The position numbers and the translations under genes were made by a program. Of a DNA stretch of 64,000 nt, positions 430-13,942 are shown piece after piece. Origin of the DNA: Corallococcus macrosporus DSM 14697 (GTDB lineage Bacteria; Myxococcota; Myxococcia; Myxococcales; Myxococcaceae); NCBI RefSeq assembly GCF_002305895.1, contig NZ_CP022203.1:5248501-5312500 (forward strand), written 5' to 3'. Below the pieces are notes generated by a model that worked only from the letters and a program-made list of their open reading frames with translations, had not been told where the DNA came from and searched no databases. Each line of letters begins with the position of its first letter. Position 1 is the stretch's first letter.

Positions 430-1708
430 AATGCGGGAGCAGAGCAGACGGAGCAGTTGATGAAGTGGAGGTTGCTTCGAGGGCTCGACCTCGAAGCGGC
501 CCGAGTCCACATCGACGGCCAGCCCTACGTCCGAGTCGGACGGTACGCGGCGACGAACGCGGCAAGGCCCCGTCGAAATAGAGAGAAGCCTCTTCCGGCG
601 GGTGGGCGAGCGCAATGGCCCCACGGTGGACACCATCAGCGTGCAAGCCAGGTGCGTGGCGGACGGCTGGTTGCCGGAGGCGGCGGTACCCATGGCGTAC
701 CTGCTGGCCCGGGGCACCTCGCGGGAGGCGGCGGCGACGGCGCGTCAGACGGGGGGGCTGCCCTATTGCCGCGCCTCCTTCGAGCGGGTGGGGCATGCGG
801 TGGGAGCGATGTACGGTGGGCCAGCGGCCTCAGGTGGAGGCGGCGCTGGCCCGGCAGCTGCGAGTGCCCCGAGGCACCCGGAGTGTGAGCATCAGCATGG
901 ACAGGGTGGCCGTGCCGATGGAGGAGCCGAAGAAGCGGCCAGTGGGCCGCCCTCGCAAGGGGCCCCCACGCGCCCGGTGGACGTCGTCTGGCGCATGGCC
1001 TACGCGGCCTGCCTCACCTTCCATGACGCCGACGGCGAAGCGCTGGGCACCTTGCGCTACGGGCGGATGCCGCGAGGTGAGGCCCCAGAAATGGCAGAGC
1101 GCCTGGCCCGCCACGTCCAGGCCCTGGTTTCCAGGCGGCGCGGCCTCTCCGTCACCGTCCTCACCGCCGGTGCCCCCGAGTTGCACGCCTTGCTGGACGA
1201 GGCGCTGGCCACCCATGCCCCAGCGGCCAAGAAGCCGATGCGTCTGGTGGACTTCTGGCACCTGATGGAGAAACTCGGGGCCGCGGCTCGCGTAGTGGCT
1301 GGGGAAGAGAAGGCCTCCGTGTTGCGTGAGAAGTGGAAGCTGTCCCGTCTCAACATGCCCGAGGCGGCGTGGACCATTGCCATGGCATTGCACGCCAGCG
1401 GCAAGCGGCATGTCGTCCTCGGTGACGGCCAACCGGTGCACGCGGCCCTCACCTACCTGGAGAACCACGGCGAGCGAATGCATTACGCGGAGGCGCGAGC
1501 GCGGGGGCTTCCCATTGGCAGCGGCAACGTGGAGGCCATCTGCAAGTCTCGCGTCACCCTGCGCATGAAGCGCCCTCGAGCCCGCTGGAATGAGGCGTCT
1601 GGCCAGCACATCCTGGACTTGCGCGCCCTGGTCCTCTCGGAGCGCTGGGACGCGGCCATGAACCTCACGTTTGCGCCCCACAGGACCAAGGTGCGACGCG
1701 CAGCATGA
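430..1708 (+). pseudogene. ISKra4-family transposase remnant with several frameshifts
   Basis: Transposase-like sequence runs through this stretch but no single frame holds it. About 430-560 reads in frame 1 (QTEQLMKWRLLRGLDLE). About 572-815 continues in frame 2 (VEIERSLFRRVGERNGPTVD, then SFERVGHAVGAMYGG). About 825-965 is in frame 3 (PKKRPVGRPRKG). From about 970 to the TGA at 1706-1708 it is in frame 2 again, including RMHYAEARARGLPIGSGNVE, the typical ISKra4 C-terminal block. At least three frameshifts therefore separate pieces of one protein, and it should be inactive. It lies beside an IS66 fragment and just upstream of an apparently truncated GNAT gene, so repeated insertions probably reshaped this end of the locus. 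Confidence 0.75.
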
Positions 1709-1796
1709 TCACGATTGGAGCCACGCCCGCTTGGCACCGCGACTCGCCGACGTGCTTTGAGACGAAGGCTACACCGAGGAGACCGAAGACCGGCTG

Positions 1797-2300
1797 ATGG
1801 TGTGCACGCCCGGCAGCAACACGCCGATTCCCAGTCCACCCGAACTCACCATTTCGGCCCTCACCTCGGACGCACCGTTCGAGGAGATGCGTACCTTCTG
1901 CGCCACGCCCCAGGATGGCTTCAACCCGGGATCGCCCGTCCAGGTGAGTGACGCAGAGGTCACCAAGACGCTGGCGGACCTCAAGGACTGCCGCGCGCTG
2001 CTGGCGAAGTGGATTTGCGTGCCCGTCGCTGGCGGGCTGGTCACCCCGCCCTATGAGGGCACCTCCGAGCTCGCTGGCGTCGCGACGCTCCAAGCGCGGC
2101 GTGGCCGGGGTATCGGCGCGGCGCTGGTCTCTCGCGCGGCCGAGGAAGCTTTCGCCAATGGAGTCAACGTGCTCTTCCTCAGTAATGTCACCGAAGAGGC
2201 AAGCCGGCTCTACGAACGCGCCGGATTCTGGTTCCTTGCGCGCATGCTTTTCATGATCGACGCTGCGCCCGCTCAGTCCGCCGGAAAGGTGACGCCATGA
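1797..2300 (+). CDS. GNAT-type N-acetyltransferase, probably 5'-truncated
   Basis: The 167-residue frame ends in a recognisable GNAT fold: an acetyl-CoA pyrophosphate loop with R/Q-x-x-G-x-G/A character (QARRGRGIGAALV, about residues 98-110), followed by the NVLFLSN strand and a YERAGF C-terminal motif. Such enzymes transfer acetyl groups to amines; the substrate here is unknown. The N-terminus is suspicious. The same frame stays coding-like upstream of the ATG (RLADVL, stop, DEGYTEETEDRL from 1740), with a TGA at 1758-1760 where CGA would read through. The gene may therefore be a decayed copy, broken next to the ISKra4 remnant. Its stop overlaps the next ATG (ATGA at 2297), so the two genes were probably co-translated. 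Confidence 0.6.
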   Translation: MVCTPGSNTPIPSPPELTISALTSDAPFEEMRTFCATPQDGFNPGSPVQVSDAEVTKTLADLKDCRALLAKWICVPVAGGLVTPPYEGTSELAGVATLQARRGRGIGAALVSRAAEEAFANGVNVLFLSNVTEEASRLYERAGFWFLARMLFMIDAAPAQSAGKVTP

Positions 2301-2914
2301 CGAAGACGCCTACCGCCACGACGAAGCGACGAAAAGCGCGGCCATCCCAGAAGGCCCCACGAATCGCGAAGGGCGCAGGCCCCGCTCCGCGCCCCGCCGT
2401 CAATCGTGAACTCCGTGGGCAGTTGCTGCGACTGGACCGCATCGACAGCACCTTGCGTTCACAGTGGGTGGCAACGGAATTCAAGGACCGCGACCTTGAA
2501 GGCAAGCTCCAGGCCCTCACGGACGCGGGCATCGAGTGGCTGCGAGACACCATCAAGGCCCACGGCTGGCCCGGACACAGCCTCGTGGGCCGGAGCGCGG
2601 CGGCCGCCGCCTGGCGCCTGATTCAACATGCCGAGTGCTCCGTGGCGTTCCAGAAGCGCTGCTTGAGCCTGCTGCGGGACGCGGCGGCGCGGGGGGATGT
2701 TCCCATCCAGCAGGTGGCCTATCTCACGGACGTCGTGCGCATGCGCGAGGGCAAGAAGCAACTGTATGGAACGAAGTTCCGCAAGCTGAAGGGCCAGCTC
2801 GTCCCCTACCCCATCGAAAAGGCGTCCTCGGTCGACGAGCGCAGGAAGCAGATGAACCTGCCCTCGTTGGAGTCCTACGCTCAGAAGCTCCGCCGCGCCT
2901 TCCAACCCTCCTGA
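2297..2914 (+). CDS. DUF6624-family protein of unknown function
   Basis: This 205-residue protein has a Lys/Arg/Pro-rich, low-complexity N-terminus (about 1-35), then a conserved core. Core motifs include the helix with NRELRGQLLRL, IEWLRDTIKAHGWPGHSLVG (about 78-97), AAWRLIQHAECSVAFQKRCL (about 103-122), VAYLTDVVRMREGKKQLYGT (about 140-159) and a C-terminal helix. These match the DUF6624 pattern (GWP-x-x-S-x-VG, AA-W-L-QHA, YLTDR, YGTQ). The family is widespread and uncharacterised. There is no signal peptide or membrane segment. It starts inside the GNAT stop codon and ends 11 bases before the first cupin-like gene, so it may be cotranscribed with the cupin pair. A role in peptide modification is only guilt by association. 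Confidence 0.7.
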   Translation: MTKTPTATTKRRKARPSQKAPRIAKGAGPAPRPAVNRELRGQLLRLDRIDSTLRSQWVATEFKDRDLEGKLQALTDAGIEWLRDTIKAHGWPGHSLVGRSAAAAAWRLIQHAECSVAFQKRCLSLLRDAAARGDVPIQQVAYLTDVVRMREGKKQLYGTKFRKLKGQLVPYPIEKASSVDERRKQMNLPSLESYAQKLRRAFQPS

Positions 2915-2925
2915 CGGGAGCCGCC

Positions 2926-4170
2926 ATGCAACGGGCCTTCGACTGGCAGCCCTTCGTGACGAAGCACTGGGAGAAGACACCCGCGCGCCTCACCCTGCCC
3001 GGCCCCATCCTGCCCGCCGAGCACGTCTTCCAGGCCGCGATCTCCGCCTGTGCCCCCTTCCGCCATGGCACGCGCTTCCGCGCCCTCCCCGATGCACGCT
3101 TCTTCGTGGAGGCCGCCAGACTCGCCGCGCCCGGGACACTCCTCCCGGGTGAAGACGACGCGTCCCTGGGCGACTTCGCCCGCCGCGCTTCCCAGCACCT
3201 GGGCGGCGCGTCCTTCCAGCTCCACATCGAACAACCCTTCATGTTCGACTTCGCCCTCTGGAACGCCTTGCGCGGCTTCCTCCGGGGGCTGCTGGAGCGC
3301 GTGGGCGTCCCGGTGCTCCCCCTGGCCACCGACCTGCTCCTGGGGCGCTTCTCACGCGGCCCACAGGGCGTCTCGAAGCGGCCCCATCACTCCCTGGTCA
3401 CGCTGGTCCTCCAGGGCCGGCTGCGGGTCCGGCTCTGGAAGCAGCTCTGGGGCACGCCCGCCAACGAGACCGAGGACTTCGACCACCACCTGGACAAGGC
3501 CACCACGGTGGAGGTCAACGCGGGCGAACTCCTCTACGTCCCTTCCCACTACTGGCAGCTCGAAGAAGCCCAGGGTGACTGCATGGCCGCCCGGGTGTGG
3601 ATCCCCGTCAAGGGGAGCCGGCCGACGGACGCGGTCAAGGACGTGCTCGTATCGCTCCTGGAAGCGCAGCACGCCCACGAGGAAGCGGTGCCCTATCACC
3701 CCTACCCCTGGCGCCGGCCACGCAAGGGCGCACGGGCCACCATCCCCTCCGTCGAGGAGGCCGCGGCCACCCTGCACACGCTGACGCGGGAAGAAGACGT
3801 CCAGCAGGTCCTGCGGCTCATCTGGGCGCGGCGGGTCAGCGCCTGTGCGCTGGAGCCCGTCCCACCGCCGGAGCAGTCCCGGCCCCTGACAGACACGGAC
3901 CGGGTGCGGAGGACGCCTGGCGCCGACCTCATCCGGATGAAGGACCCCTCGGGCCTCTGGATCTGGGCCGTCAACGGCCACGCCTTCCCAGGCCCCGATG
4001 CGACGACAGGCCAGCGACTCCTCAGTGCCCTGTCCTCGGACGAGCCGTCTCGCGTCGATGCGCTGTGCAACCTGGCTCGCTCGGCCCCGCGCCGTGAGGC
4101 CCTTCGCGCCACGCTGACGGCGCTCGTTCGCCTGCGCGGGCTTCAGGTCATCACCGGAGCGGAGGTCTGA
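2926..4170 (+). CDS. Cupin/JmjC-like protein lacking the iron-binding triad (likely pseudoenzyme)
   Basis: This 414-residue protein is a clear paralog of the next gene. Shared elements are the N-terminal FDWQPFVTKHW segment, the cupin strand RLRVRLWKQLW (about 165-175), GELLYVPSHYW (about 200-210), and the C-terminal LEPVPPPEQSRPLTDTDRVR and NGHAFPG blocks. The active paralog carries HLD (the His-x-Asp iron ligand), but the corresponding stretch here reads SKRPHHS. The distal histidine of YYHVGE is replaced in HYWQLEE, leaving no canonical 2-His-1-carboxylate set. It probably does not hydroxylate and may bind peptide or act as a non-catalytic partner. The ATG at 2926 is preferred over upstream in-frame codons because it follows the DUF6624 stop and starts the conserved block. 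Three bases separate it from the next gene. Confidence 0.75.
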   Translation: MQRAFDWQPFVTKHWEKTPARLTLPGPILPAEHVFQAAISACAPFRHGTRFRALPDARFFVEAARLAAPGTLLPGEDDASLGDFARRASQHLGGASFQLHIEQPFMFDFALWNALRGFLRGLLERVGVPVLPLATDLLLGRFSRGPQGVSKRPHHSLVTLVLQGRLRVRLWKQLWGTPANETEDFDHHLDKATTVEVNAGELLYVPSHYWQLEEAQGDCMAARVWIPVKGSRPTDAVKDVLVSLLEAQHAHEEAVPYHPYPWRRPRKGARATIPSVEEAAATLHTLTREEDVQQVLRLIWARRVSACALEPVPPPEQSRPLTDTDRVRRTPGADLIRMKDPSGLWIWAVNGHAFPGPDATTGQRLLSALSSDEPSRVDALCNLARSAPRREALRATLTALVRLRGLQVITGAEV

Positions 4171-4173
4171 CGG

Positions 4174-5502
4174 ATGCCCGCCCTGGAAATCGCGACGCGC
4201 TTCGACTGGGACACCTTCGTCAAGCGCTACTGGAACCAGCGCCCCGTCCTCTTCAAGGGAACACAGGCGTCCCCCTTCACCGTGGAGGACGTCTTCGACG
4301 CGGCGGCCGGCGCCACCCAGCGCTATCTGTCCCGCAGCTACGCGCCGACGTCCCGGCCAGACGTCACCTTCACCATCGACCGGCTGCGCCAGCTCCGCGC
4401 CCGCCCGTGGCTCCCCCAGGCCTCGGATGGCTCCCTGGACGGCTACGACGCCCGGATGGCCTCCCAGCTTGGCGACCGCCGCTACGCCCTCATCATCGCG
4501 ACCTTGCACGCCTCGGGCTTCCGGCTCTGGTCTCGGCAGCGCGCCTTCTTCTCCGGCCTGTGGCAGCGCGTCGGGATGCCCGTGACAGGTGGCATCACCA
4601 CGCTGTTCCACGGGACCTACGAACACAGCCCCGTGGGCGTCCACCTGGACCGCTTCACCACGTTCCTGTTCGCGCTGCGCGGACGCAAGCGGATGCGCTT
4701 CTGGCGCAAGCGCCCCTGGCGCGAGGACGTCTCCACCATCCTGGACTACCAGCCGTACCTGGCATCGTCCTTCGTCGCGGAGGTGGAGCCCGGCGACATC
4801 CTCTACTGGCCCTCCACCTACTACCACGTCGGTGAGAGCGCCGGAGCCGGTGTGGCCAGCAGCGTGAACGTCGGCATCCCCATCACCGAGCACCGCACCA
4901 TCTATTCCGTGGATGACCTGCTGCGAGGGATGCTCGACGAGACATCGCTCGCCGACCAGGAGTGGAAGCAGACGCGGCTGGCCTCCGTGTCAGCGCCGCC
5001 CCTGGCTCGCGGCGTCCTCACGCAGGACGGTGTCCTGGACACGACGCTGCCCAAGGCCCTCACCGAGGCCGTGCGCGCGTTTCGCGACGTCAGCCACCCG
5101 AAGGAGGCTCAGCGGCACCTCCAGGCCACCTGGCTCAAGCGTCTCACCTCGGGCGGCTTCGAGCCCGTGCCGCCGCCCACCCGCGCACGGCGCTTGAATG
5201 ATGCACACCGCGTGCGACTGGACCCGAACTTCCCCGTCGTCTTTGAGCGAGACGGCGCCACGAGCTGGCTCTGCTCCGCCAATGGCCACGCGCTGCATGG
5301 CGTGGGAGGCGGACGCACCATTGAAATATTCTTCCGAAAGCTGAACTCCGGAGCGGAACTGCGCGTGGAGGAGCTGCTGCGTCCATTCAAGCCACGCCGC
5401 GCGGCGACACATGATTCAGATGTCATTGCCGCGACGCGTGATGGAATGCGCGGCCTCCTGCAAAAACTACATTCATTTCGTGTAATCACTCTCAGCACTT
5501 GA
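4174..5502 (+). CDS. Cupin/JmjC-like Fe(II)-dependent oxygenase with intact HxD...H motif
   Basis: This 442-residue protein is of the cupin_8/JmjC-like type. Iron ligands are visible as H157-x-D159 in GVHLDRFTTF and a distal H218 in YWPSTYYHVGE, spaced as in 2-oxoglutarate/Fe(II) hydroxylases. About 180 further residues after the barrel contain the LKRLTSGGFEPVPPP and NGHALHG blocks, also seen in the preceding paralog, so both have the same bipartite layout. Proteins with this fold hydroxylate side chains of peptides, proteins or RNA. The substrate is inferred to be the small peptide encoded 61 bases downstream, because the two cupin genes and the peptide gene form a compact unit ended by a hairpin. 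It could instead act on the assembly-line product of the neighbouring cluster. No signal peptide is seen. Confidence 0.75.
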   Translation: MPALEIATRFDWDTFVKRYWNQRPVLFKGTQASPFTVEDVFDAAAGATQRYLSRSYAPTSRPDVTFTIDRLRQLRARPWLPQASDGSLDGYDARMASQLGDRRYALIIATLHASGFRLWSRQRAFFSGLWQRVGMPVTGGITTLFHGTYEHSPVGVHLDRFTTFLFALRGRKRMRFWRKRPWREDVSTILDYQPYLASSFVAEVEPGDILYWPSTYYHVGESAGAGVASSVNVGIPITEHRTIYSVDDLLRGMLDETSLADQEWKQTRLASVSAPPLARGVLTQDGVLDTTLPKALTEAVRAFRDVSHPKEAQRHLQATWLKRLTSGGFEPVPPPTRARRLNDAHRVRLDPNFPVVFERDGATSWLCSANGHALHGVGGGRTIEIFFRKLNSGAELRVEELLRPFKPRRAATHDSDVIAATRDGMRGLLQKLHSFRVITLST

Positions 5503-5552
5503 CGCTTCATCCATCAGCCCGCACGCTGGGCCAGCAGTTCTCAATCACCGAC

Positions 5553-5558
5553 GGAGGA
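5553..5558 (+). promoter_or_regulatory. Strong ribosome binding site for the 50-residue peptide gene
   Basis: GGAGGA stands five bases before the ATG at 5564. It is one of the best Shine-Dalgarno matches in the window and supports real, strong translation of a gene short enough to be missed by gene callers. Confidence 0.6.
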
Positions 5559-5563
5559 GTGTC

Positions 5564-5716
5564 ATGACGAAGACGAAGTCGAAGGCCCCCCGGTCGTCCA
5601 AGCAGGCCCAGCAGAAGCTCGTGAAGCTGATGAACGTGATGGAGAAGGCCACGGTTCCCGCTGCCACGAAGGCCGTGGCGGGCACGTGTATCCGCATCTA
5701 CTGCTTCCCGTACTGA
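5564..5716 (+). CDS. Candidate RiPP precursor peptide (50 residues, Cys/Tyr-rich C-terminus)
   Basis: A short frame runs from ATG 5564 to TGA 5714-5716, with GGAGGA just upstream. The first 20 residues are basic and polar (start MTKTKSKAPRSSKQAQQK). About 14-28 could form an amphipathic helix (QQKLVKLMNVMEK). An Ala/Val/Thr-rich linker follows, and the peptide ends AGTCIRIYCFPY, with Cys42 and Cys47 four residues apart and Tyr46, Phe48, Pro49 and Tyr50. This leader-plus-core shape is typical of ribosomally made, modified peptides; a cut near Ala39-Gly40 would release a 10-12 residue core. It follows two cupin-like genes and is closed by a perfect hairpin. I do not recognise a known RiPP class. 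A small structural or regulatory protein is the alternative. Confidence 0.6.
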   Translation: MTKTKSKAPRSSKQAQQKLVKLMNVMEKATVPAATKAVAGTCIRIYCFPY

Positions 5717-5723
5717 CGCCTCC

Positions 5724-5751
5724 GGGCCGCTGGGAATCGTCCCAGCGGCCC
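5724..5751 (+). terminator. Perfect 12-bp stem, 4-base loop hairpin after the peptide gene
   Basis: GGGCCGCTGGGA (5724-5735) and TCCCAGCGGCCC (5740-5751) pair perfectly around the loop ATCG, starting seven bases after the peptide stop. No T-run follows, so it is either a U-tract-free terminator, as is common in GC-rich bacteria, or a 3' mRNA-stabilising or attenuating stem. It separates the cupin/peptide genes from the gene at 5861. Confidence 0.7.
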
Positions 5752-5860
5752 ACTTCCCAACCTGCGCAGTGTGCCTCGCGAAGCCAATGTCAGGCATTCT
5801 GGAGCACACCGCCCCCCGCACTATCCTGTCACCCTCCTGAATCCACCAAGGAGCCGTGAC

Positions 5861-7261
5861 ATGACCAGCGCCGTCGACCTGCAGGGCAACCCACTGGGCG
5901 ACCTCGCCCTCGCCGCGATGCGGCGCTGGCTCCTCGAAGCCGATGTGCTGGGCTACCTGCCGCAGCTTGCCGCCACGGAGTCCGAGGGCCGGCTCTGGAC
6001 CTACTTCAGCTTCGGCGTCCGCCGCCTCGAAGCGCTCGTCCGGGAGCGCGGGCCCCAGGTCCTCGAGGACGCCTCCGCCTTCCCCGAGGACCTCGACGCC
6101 ATCGTCGCGCTGCGTGAGTTCATCGCCGCGGCGCCCCCGCTCATCAACGGCCGCCGGAGGCTGGTGGAGCAGCTTCGCGCCTTCCCCGCGGAACGAGACG
6201 CGCTGGCCCAGGGCCGTCCGCTGAGCGCCCAGGAGCTGTTCTCCCTCTGGTACCTGAAGGCCCTCCCCGGCGCATACATGGCGCAGCGCCTTCAACTGAC
6301 GGACGTGGACGAGGCCACCGTACGGCGCATCGCGACGCTGTCCGCCGTGGGCCTCCAGATGTTCGACGACCTGGTGGACCTGCGAGCGGACCTCGCCAGG
6401 GGCCGCTTGTGGCTGAGCGCGGAGGAGCTGGAGCTGCTGGGCCTGTCCTCGACGCCCGCCTCCGAGCTGCCGACCGCCGCGGGTGAGCGCATCGTCCAGC
6501 AGCGCAAGGCCATCTGCCTGGAGTACTTCCTCGCCGTGTATGACGAGGCCTCGCGCCTCACCTCGCCGGAGAGCCGCAAGCGCGCCAGGTCCTTCGCGGA
6601 GGGCTGGTTGAGCTTCCTCCAGCAGGGCTCCCTCAAGCTCTACGCCGCCGGGGAGCCCAGGCCCTGGGACACCGTGCAGCGGGTCCTCAGGGGACTGCCC
6701 GGCTCGGAGACGGCGAAGCTGCCCGTGCTGCGCTCGGTGTTCTCCCTCCTGTCCGCATTGCCGCTCCCGCCGGTGAAGGTGGAGTCCTGCCGCCGGGAGC
6801 TCGAGCTGCTGGGTGGCTGCCCCAAGGCGCTGGCGCCCGCGGTGGCCCTGGAGACGATGGGCGCGCTCGAGGCGGAGGGAGACGCGGCGTCCTTCGACGC
6901 GCCCGGGACCGAGGCCACCGCGCTGGAGCGCGCGCTGCTGGCGTCGCCCTCGAAGCACACGGCGGCGGACTTCGCGCGGCAGTGCCGCGAGTCCGCCGAG
7001 GGCTCGCCGTCCAACCTCAGGGAGCCCCGCCTGGCGGAGGTGTTCGCCAGCGGCTGCAAGCTCGCGGAGCGCAGCGCGCGGAACTCCTTCACGGCCCGAG
7101 AGAACTTCCTCCAGCAGCTTCGCCCAGGCTCGCGCCGCGCCCCGGTGGTGGATGCGGAATTGGCCGAGCGGTTCTCCCGCGACGGCGCGGACTGGCTCGC
7201 GTTGGGCATCGAGGCCCTCGCGGCGACGGCCCGAGAGGTCCGCGACGGCTGCCGGAAGTAA
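5861..7261 (+). CDS. Unrecognised helical protein with squalene/phytoene-synthase-like motif
   Basis: This 466-residue, almost all-helical soluble protein starts at ATG 5861, chosen over an in-frame upstream start because AAGGAG lies seven bases before it. The only recognisable motif is at about residues 168-195 (LQMFDDLVDLRADLARGRLW, then LSAEELELLGL). It resembles the second Asp-rich helix of squalene/phytoene synthases (D-x-x-x-D, GR-x-Y/W-L, E-x-L). The first Asp-rich motif is not obvious, so activity as a prenyl-diphosphate condensing enzyme is uncertain. It is followed after 33 bases by the thioesterase gene and is probably cotranscribed with it. It could be an isoprenoid-synthase-fold tailoring or scaffold protein. 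Confidence in the frame is high, in the function low. Confidence 0.65.
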   Translation: MTSAVDLQGNPLGDLALAAMRRWLLEADVLGYLPQLAATESEGRLWTYFSFGVRRLEALVRERGPQVLEDASAFPEDLDAIVALREFIAAAPPLINGRRRLVEQLRAFPAERDALAQGRPLSAQELFSLWYLKALPGAYMAQRLQLTDVDEATVRRIATLSAVGLQMFDDLVDLRADLARGRLWLSAEELELLGLSSTPASELPTAAGERIVQQRKAICLEYFLAVYDEASRLTSPESRKRARSFAEGWLSFLQQGSLKLYAAGEPRPWDTVQRVLRGLPGSETAKLPVLRSVFSLLSALPLPPVKVESCRRELELLGGCPKALAPAVALETMGALEAEGDAASFDAPGTEATALERALLASPSKHTAADFARQCRESAEGSPSNLREPRLAEVFASGCKLAERSARNSFTARENFLQQLRPGSRRAPVVDAELAERFSRDGADWLALGIEALAATAREVRDGCRK

Positions 7262-7294
7262 CCCCTCTGCTGTCCTCAACACCCGCGATACGCA

Positions 7295-8083
7295 ATGACT
7301 CCAGAATCCAGCACCGCGGCGGCCGAGTCCCCCTGGCTCGTCCGCCGCAAGCCCGCTTCGTCTCCTCGCCTCCGGCTGTTCTGCTTCCCCTACGCGGGGG
7401 CCGGCAGCCTCCCCTACTTCCGCTGGCCGGACCTGCTCCCCGAGGCGGACATCGAGGTGTGCGCCATCCAGCCTCCCGGCCGGGAGAACCGCCTCCATGA
7501 GCCCTCCGTGGAGGAGCTGCCGCGGCTGCTGGATTCGCTCGCGCGCGAGCTGTCACCGCTCTTCGAGGTGCCCTTCGCCTTCTTCGGCCACAGCCTGGGG
7601 GCGCTCATCGCCTTCGAGCTGACGCGCGAGCTGCGTCGCAGGGGCCTGCCACTGCCAGGCACCCTGTTCGTCTCGGGCTCCGAGGCGCCGTCACGCCGCA
7701 GCGGCCTGCCGCCCCTCAGCGGCCTGCGCCGCGACGACTTCATCCGTGAGCTGTCCGCCCGCTACGACGGCATCCCCCAGCAGGTCCTGGCGCAGCCGGA
7801 GATCCTGGACCTCATCCTCCCCATCCTCCGCGCCGACCTGAAGATTTCTGAGAGCTACACCTACCAGGAGGAGGCGCCGCTCCCGATGCGCCTGTGTGCC
7901 TTTGGCGGCACCCGGGATCCTCGCGTCTCTGAAGCCGCGCTCGAAGCGTGGCGGCAGCAGACCCACGCGGCCTTCTCGATGAAGCTGTTCCCAGGCGGCC
8001 ACTTCTTCCTCAACGAGCTGACGGCCCAGGTGGTCCAGGCCGTCCACACCGAACTCGCAGCCGGAGCACCCCGAACGCCATGA
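7295..8083 (+). CDS. Type II (editing) thioesterase of PKS/NRPS systems
   Basis: This 262-residue alpha/beta hydrolase is of the GrsT/TEII type. It has the family's FCFPYAGAGSLPYFRW start (about 29-44), the nucleophile elbow FFGHSLG with Ser100, Asp208 in GGTRDP and His236 in PGGHFF, forming the Ser-Asp-His triad. Such enzymes remove mis-primed acyl groups from carrier-protein phosphopantetheine arms in the cytoplasm, keeping the assembly line active. Its stop overlaps the start of the carrier-protein gene (ATGA at 8080), so the two are translationally coupled. It lies tail-to-tail with the last PKS gene, which fits a housekeeping role for that synthase. It is distinct from the releasing TE domain in the NRPS. 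Confidence 0.92.
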   Translation: MTPESSTAAAESPWLVRRKPASSPRLRLFCFPYAGAGSLPYFRWPDLLPEADIEVCAIQPPGRENRLHEPSVEELPRLLDSLARELSPLFEVPFAFFGHSLGALIAFELTRELRRRGLPLPGTLFVSGSEAPSRRSGLPPLSGLRRDDFIRELSARYDGIPQQVLAQPEILDLILPILRADLKISESYTYQEEAPLPMRLCAFGGTRDPRVSEAALEAWRQQTHAAFSMKLFPGGHFFLNELTAQVVQAVHTELAAGAPRTP

Positions 8084-8346
8084 ACAGAGACGACCTGCTC
8101 GACGACCTGACCCGCTATGTCGCGGAGGAGCTCCTGGACGGGGACGCGGAGGAGCTCGACTCCTCCACGCCCCTGCTCGAGCTCGGTGTGCTGAACTCGC
8201 TGGAGACCGCCCGGATGATGGGCTTCATCCAGAAGCAGTACGGCATCACCGTGCCCTCGGAGTCGCTGAAGGTGGAGAACCTCCAGACGATCTCCGCCAT
8301 CGCGGACCTCGTCTACGACGCGAAGTCCAAGCAGCAGCAGCCGTAG
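8080..8346 (+). CDS. Free-standing peptidyl carrier protein, PltL/RedO-like (prolyl carrier)
   Basis: This 88-residue acidic carrier protein has the phosphopantetheine site Ser40 in PLLELGVLNSLETARMMGF. The LL-E-x-G-x-LNS signature, rather than LG-x-DS, is typical of type II prolyl carrier proteins such as PltL in pyrrole pathways. It would carry L-proline loaded by the adenylation enzyme at 53282 and be oxidised by the dehydrogenase at 52146 to pyrrole-2-carboxyl thioester, the inferred starter unit. It overlaps the thioesterase by four bases. Its stop lies only four bases from the stop of the convergent 1863-residue PKS. The pathway assignment is inferred from the motif and partner enzymes. 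A generic ACP is the alternative. Confidence 0.85.
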   Translation: MNRDDLLDDLTRYVAEELLDGDAEELDSSTPLLELGVLNSLETARMMGFIQKQYGITVPSESLKVENLQTISAIADLVYDAKSKQQQP

Positions 8347-8350
8347 CCGC

Positions 8351-13942
<5,592 letters not shown>

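Follow-up and report, generated by a model that had tools for sequence, protein, structure and literature searches.

The window analysed here is a 64,000-nucleotide stretch of the Corallococcus macrosporus DSM 14697 genome (NZ_CP022203.1, positions 5,248,501 to 5,312,500, forward strand). Near its start lies a compact plus-strand gene set ending in a very short gene, whose 50-residue product is, judging from its relatives in other genomes, almost certainly the precursor of a ribosomally synthesized and post-translationally modified peptide (RiPP). The set begins with a 205-residue DUF6624 protein (2297-2914; Pfam PF20329, 3.5e-19). It continues with A (2926-4170), a YcfD-like JmjC protein without an iron-binding triad, and B (4174-5502), a YcfD-like JmjC Fe(II)/2-oxoglutarate oxygenase. 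The precursor gene (5564-5716) is preceded by the ribosome-binding site GGAGGAG (5553-5559) and encodes a Lys-rich leader and the core tail TCIRIYCFPY (5684-5713); the operon closes at a perfect 12-bp hairpin (5724-5751, -28.5 kcal/mol, shuffle z -5.6). A preliminary description of this DNA had given A, B and the 50-residue frame with the same ends and the same final residues, and had claimed a strong ribosome site and a perfect closing hairpin. These points all stand, and both signals are kept at orthologous loci, the hairpin with small changes. The hairpin lacks a T-run and is not called as a canonical intrinsic terminator, and Rfam has no match within 1700-8400. That description started the unit at A, however, and left out the DUF6624 neighbour, which belongs to the system: at one locus in each of 12 myxobacterial genomes the gene stands in front of A, and elsewhere it is fused to another of the pathway's enzymes.

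Among 145 genomes of the order, 37 have some relative of B and 12 have a close A-B pair, distributed over 19 loci. In all 19 a precursor gene lies directly behind B. A profile of these 19 precursors, searched against the 145 genomes, returned the same 19 places plus three marginal matches inside long frames, and plasmids gave no match. Invariant positions are K7, S12, K13, Q14, K18, L19, K28, C42, Y46 and C47, and position 41 is Ser or Thr throughout. Precursors from loci of the window type carry their own C-terminal extension, xPY or xPF, where the others end in Val; all of them retain [S/T]-C, and their ratios of nonsynonymous to synonymous substitution (dN/dS) of 0.23-0.77 indicate purifying selection. 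Homologues beside the cupin pair and conservation of the Cys/Tyr tail were the checks that had been proposed for the peptide. The homologues adjoin every close A-B pair and recur in three phyla, and no part of the precursor is more conserved than the tail.

To follow the family further, 84,980 species genomes were scanned with the B alignment, which gave 33 loci picked by the oxygenase alone and not by the peptide. They come from Streptomyces, Kitasatospora, Catenulispora, Fodinicola, Stackebrandtia, Lysobacter, Luteimonas and Myxococcus, and in nearly all of them A and B are found together with a gene for a LanM-type dehydratase, here called LM. One to three small open reading frames (ORFs) with the end [S/T]-C-x(2-4)-Y-C-x(0-5) are present at 31 of the 33 loci, and the motif did not occur once in 4.08 Mb of first-order Markov shuffles of the same DNA. 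The two loci without it are one cut at a contig end (L093) and one with no LM or DUF6624 match in its stretch (L087). A, B, LM, DUF6624 and motif-bearing ORFs occur together in Actinomycetota, Lysobacteraceae and Myxococcota, with several precursors per operon outside the myxobacteria. The leader varies by phylum, from Lys-rich in myxobacteria to ELDLVIGELEQ-like in streptomycetes, and the tail is constant; the residues common to every precursor are only Ser/Thr, Cys, Tyr and Cys. No motif-bearing peptide lies near the more distant JmjC relatives (L054-L076).

The purifying selection, the match at 19 loci and the absence of the motif from shuffled DNA argue that the 50-residue frame is more than a chance ORF. 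A short precursor with a leader and a conserved core is co-conserved with modifying enzymes, as expected for a RiPP, and we regard the RiPP nature of the system as strongly supported; the modification chemistry discussed below is what we infer from the enzymes. As of June 2026, no NCBIfam model covers the precursors, A or B, and routine annotation is therefore likely to overlook the precursors. Three side observations concern individual loci. The Luteimonas loci (L099, L105, L106) have a shuffled order of precursor, A, LM-DUF6624 and B. A record titled 'Comamonas sp. KCTC 72670' holds both Myxococcus-type loci (L078, L079), matches the sequence of genome G107, a member of the same genus as the window, and is probably mislabelled. 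A PGM1-like ATP-grasp protein (321-1856) precedes the Streptomyces roseolilacinus cluster (L084) and does not recur in the flank clustering.

When the C. macrosporus genome was searched with its own peptide, the peptide itself and one other place were found, the latter at E 0.03. Such a match means little alone, but it is lent weight by the A-B pair directly in front of it, whose B is 55% identical to that of the window. The precursor at this second locus, MVKAKTKAKASKQAKKLTQVLRELDKTTKPAGSGNAYRSCSRFIYCV, is followed by the LM gene (genome positions 653,923-655,863, minus strand), 4.6 Mb from the window locus. LM has 647 residues and a DUF4135 match (the LanM dehydratase domain, 2.8e-14) as its sole domain; no LanC cyclase domain was found in it, and the LANC_like matches in these genomes sit elsewhere. 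The window locus itself does not encode LM. The earlier description recognised no lanthipeptide cyclase, radical SAM enzyme, YcaO, ATP-grasp or P450 and matched the locus to no RiPP class; a RiPP enzyme of a known kind, LM, is nevertheless part of the system, encoded at the second locus here and, in most other genomes, next to the precursor. In the second-locus precursors, dN/dS values lie anywhere between 0.4 and more than 1, with few synonymous changes to base them on, a scatter that would allow a leader held fixed beside a core that varies. One further JmjC_2 protein, of 493 residues, lies convergent to LM in another genome (G075; L044, 10391-11875, minus strand).

LM and DUF6624 are split between the two modules. 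In each of the 12 genomes a single LM adjoins an A-B pair and a single DUF6624 is of the RiPP type; the remaining DUF4135 frames, located away from these pairs, have higher scores and mostly represent full-length LanM. Seven genomes have two modules: in these, DUF6624 but not LM is encoded at the window-type locus, and LM but not DUF6624 at the second. In a tree of B, window-type loci are nested among loci with both genes, and LM has therefore been lost from them secondarily. In nearly all non-myxobacterial LM loci, LM and DUF6624 form one open frame of about 800-870 residues, a fusion that Pfam confirms for five loci; one exception, Streptomyces otsuchiensis (L100), has no DUF6624 match. As LM and DUF6624 make up a single polypeptide in other phyla, they most naturally read as one split enzyme that serves both modules, and LM likely acts in trans on the window precursor.

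In actinobacteria and Lysobacteraceae, DUF6624 forms the C-terminus of LM, and it therefore sits where LanC sits in LanM. Residues C122 and K160 are invariant and H89 is nearly invariant among RiPP-linked DUF6624 proteins, and a paralogue in the same genome, 39% identical, lacks all three. The predicted structure is confident and all-helical except for a short hairpin. A PDB search with this model gave no significant match, and the look-alikes at Z about 7 were set aside as within the noise for helical models. Carter et al. (PMC13097080) pointed out DUF6624 in several groups of graspetides and raised the possibility that it represents a class of biosynthetic enzyme not yet discovered.

A and B had been described as two paralogous cupin/JmjC-like genes. 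The paralogy holds, at about 28% identity, but the two are not equivalent, since the iron triad is found in B only. B matches Pfam JmjC_2 (6.4e-8), A only below threshold, and the nearest solved structure to B is YcfD, an L16 arginine hydroxylase (phmmer 1.3e-7). The B triad, H157, D159 and H218, is invariant in 30 of 30 homologues, and the conserved HxD...H triad is absent from A across 31 homologues. The predicted structure of A matches YcfD over residues 1-411, C-terminal domain included (Foldseek 5e-16), at Z 17 and a root-mean-square deviation of 7-8 Å, a deviation that implies a different placement of the domains. From these alignments A is probably a pseudo-oxygenase, and we are confident that it is non-catalytic. 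B, slightly less surely, would act as an oxygenase on the peptide, and by analogy with YcfD side-chain hydroxylation is plausible. A would be the substrate-binding partner of B, with a role in binding the leader. RRE-like domains fused to PF08007 proteins have been reported, with bacterial homologues in RiPP-like contexts (PMC12710340); these fusions would fit such a role for A, the step from them to A being our own. All 19 close precursors have an Arg or Lys between the two cysteines. Arginine, the target suggested by YcfD, was considered for B and rejected as a universal target, because many other tails, TCAGWYC, TCASMYC and TCGLHLYC among them, have no Arg or Lys there.

In the class II synthetase CylM, K274, D347, N352 and D364 serve phosphorylation and H254, R506 and T512 serve elimination (PMC4550811). 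LM has counterparts of all these residues (Ser or Thr at T512), as read from weak local alignments and conserved columns, and probably dehydrates the core. We favour, with reasonable confidence, a pathway in which LM and DUF6624 carry out dehydration, probably followed by thioether closure, and B performs an oxidation guided by A. LM, supplied in trans, and the window DUF6624 would phosphorylate the core Thr (Ser in other precursors) and eliminate the phosphate to give dehydrobutyrine or dehydroalanine. The Cys of the Tyr-Cys pair would then add to this residue, yielding a (methyl)lanthionine-type ring of six to eight residues, with DUF6624 assisting closure at the place that LanC takes in an ordinary LanM. 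The A-B complex would bind the Lys-rich leader, perhaps through a C-terminal winged-helix-type domain, and B would oxidise one core residue, most simply by hydroxylation. Since Ser/Thr, Cys, Tyr and Cys are the sole residues conserved in every precursor, they are the candidate targets, and our best guess for B is the invariant Tyr or a Cys. Leader removal and export would fall to unlinked functions. For a thioether ring in the product we put the chances at about even. The fuller proposal is more tentative and falls a little short of that: a new RiPP class with DUF6624 as a new type of peptide cyclase or elimination partner replacing LanC, a YcfD-like pair of one intact and one triad-less member placing a new oxidation at the invariant Tyr-Cys, and, in Myxococcus, two oxygenase modules, each specific to its precursor, sharing one split dehydratase-DUF6624 enzyme in trans across about 4.6 Mb.

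Several observations weigh against this pathway. The seven two-module genomes form one clade, so that their complementary split counts as one event, kept over divergence. The genome encodes three full-length LanM synthetases at other places, and these could likewise act in trans. Clustering of the flanking ORFs of the non-myxobacterial loci brought out neither a protease nor a transporter as a dedicated, conserved partner. A dehydratase on its own may go no further than phosphorylation, or may depend on DUF6624 in a manner unlike that of LanC. Finally, LM has Glu at the position of CylM D252, and CylM H349 is not conserved; the H349A variant of CylM keeps residual activity (PMC4550811). These substitutions, together with the lack of a recognisable enzyme fold for DUF6624 in the PDB, would suit an LM that is a kinase only or a pseudo-enzyme, with the core Ser/Thr phosphorylated or unmodified and DUF6624 a binding partner, not a catalyst. 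The conserved counterparts of both the phosphorylation and the elimination residues make this improbable, in our estimate.

A somewhat better, still unlikely, alternative is that LM is gone for good from this branch, leaving A-B and DUF6624 to make, for example, a hydroxylated, disulfide-closed TCIRIYC. LM is indeed missing from seven of seven window-type loci, whose precursors have the xPY/xPF extension instead of Val. Yet the [S/T]-C pair is kept in every one of these precursors, each genome with a window-type locus also has an LM-bearing module, and it is the window-type locus that keeps DUF6624, the fusion partner of LM elsewhere, and the LM-bearing one that lacks it. A further alternative has no natural product at all: like YcfD, A and B would modify a cellular protein, ribosomal or otherwise, and the small ORF would encode a regulatory or structural peptide. 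It draws on the L16 arginine hydroxylases being the nearest solved relatives of B. We consider it very improbable, given that in three phyla the pair strictly accompanies a conserved small ORF and a LanM-type dehydratase, that the spread is patchy (12 of 145 genomes of the order), that modules are duplicated and that operons in other phyla hold several precursors. The pathway of dehydration, probable ring closure and A-guided oxidation remains our preferred reading. The preliminary proposal of a new RiPP locus built from a cupin pair and a Cys/Tyr-ended peptide is strongly supported, and was incomplete as to the triad of A, DUF6624 and LM.

Downstream of the hairpin, at 5861-8343, lie genes for a 466-residue protein weakly similar to squalene/phytoene synthases, a type II thioesterase and a free-standing acyl carrier protein (ACP). 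The three keep their synteny at every window-type locus and in one further genome (G119), where a C-terminal fragment of gene B is all that is left of the pair (L056, 7742-7840) and no precursor was found; that locus is a decayed or deleted copy of a window-type locus. The three genes were considered as members of the system and rejected, as they persist in G119 and are absent from LM-bearing loci. Beyond them a large hybrid cluster of non-ribosomal peptide synthetase and polyketide synthase genes occupies 8351-62797 on the minus strand; the two of its proteins that were scanned have condensation, adenylation and thioesterase domains and ketosynthase, acyltransferase, dehydratase and ketoreductase domains (KS-AT-DH-KR). 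Upstream, at 1-1708, lie frames that by eye resemble transposase remnants.

Taken together, the system appears to be a class of ribosomal, post-translationally modified peptides not described before. It joins three poorly understood families in one pathway across three phyla, namely DUF6624, LanM-type dehydratases without a cyclase, and JmjC pairs of one intact and one triad-less member. It could reveal what DUF6624 does, widen the reach of the YcfD-type hydroxylases from proteins to peptide natural products, and serve as an example of a RiPP with its enzymes divided between two distant loci; the short invariant core makes heterologous reconstitution simple. Among the open-access papers searched, we found none that joins JmjC, DUF4135 and DUF6624, and a description may exist in a subscription journal.

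The closest known systems each share part of this architecture. Class II lanthipeptides, made by LanM enzymes such as CylM, have in common with it a DUF4135 dehydratase with most catalytic residues kept and a core of Ser/Thr and Cys. They differ in that LM has DUF6624 in place of a LanC domain, in the A-B JmjC pair and in the dehydratase-free window locus, so that the pathway would be lanthipeptide-like up to dehydration and lacks the LanC cyclase that defines the class. Dehydrazoles (carnazolamide; PMC10676384) likewise combine a divergent DUF4135 dehydratase with other modifying enzymes, but their hallmark is a YcaO beside a DUF4135-class III cyclase fusion (PMC10676384), whereas the fusion partner here is DUF6624 and the other partners are JmjC proteins; the flank clustering of non-myxobacterial loci gave no further conserved protein, no search having been aimed at YcaO. 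Graspetide groups 18, 20, 23 and 42 also contain DUF6624 (PMC13097080), together with an ATP-grasp graspetide synthetase that the flank clustering does not reveal as a conserved partner here. The biphenomycin pathway resembles ours in having a JmjC oxygenase, the ornithine hydroxylase BipG, that acts on a RiPP precursor (PMC12707348), but it uses a multinuclear non-heme iron-dependent oxidative enzyme (MNIO) and a B12-dependent radical SAM enzyme and has no DUF4135 or DUF6624. Finally, the PF08007 ribosomal oxygenases YcfD/RoxA and NO66/MINA53 share the fold of A and the sequence and metal triad of B. In contrast to them, the proteins described here form a pair of one intact and one triad-less member, the precursors lack a conserved L16-type Arg, and their genes are clustered with those of a precursor peptide and a dehydratase.
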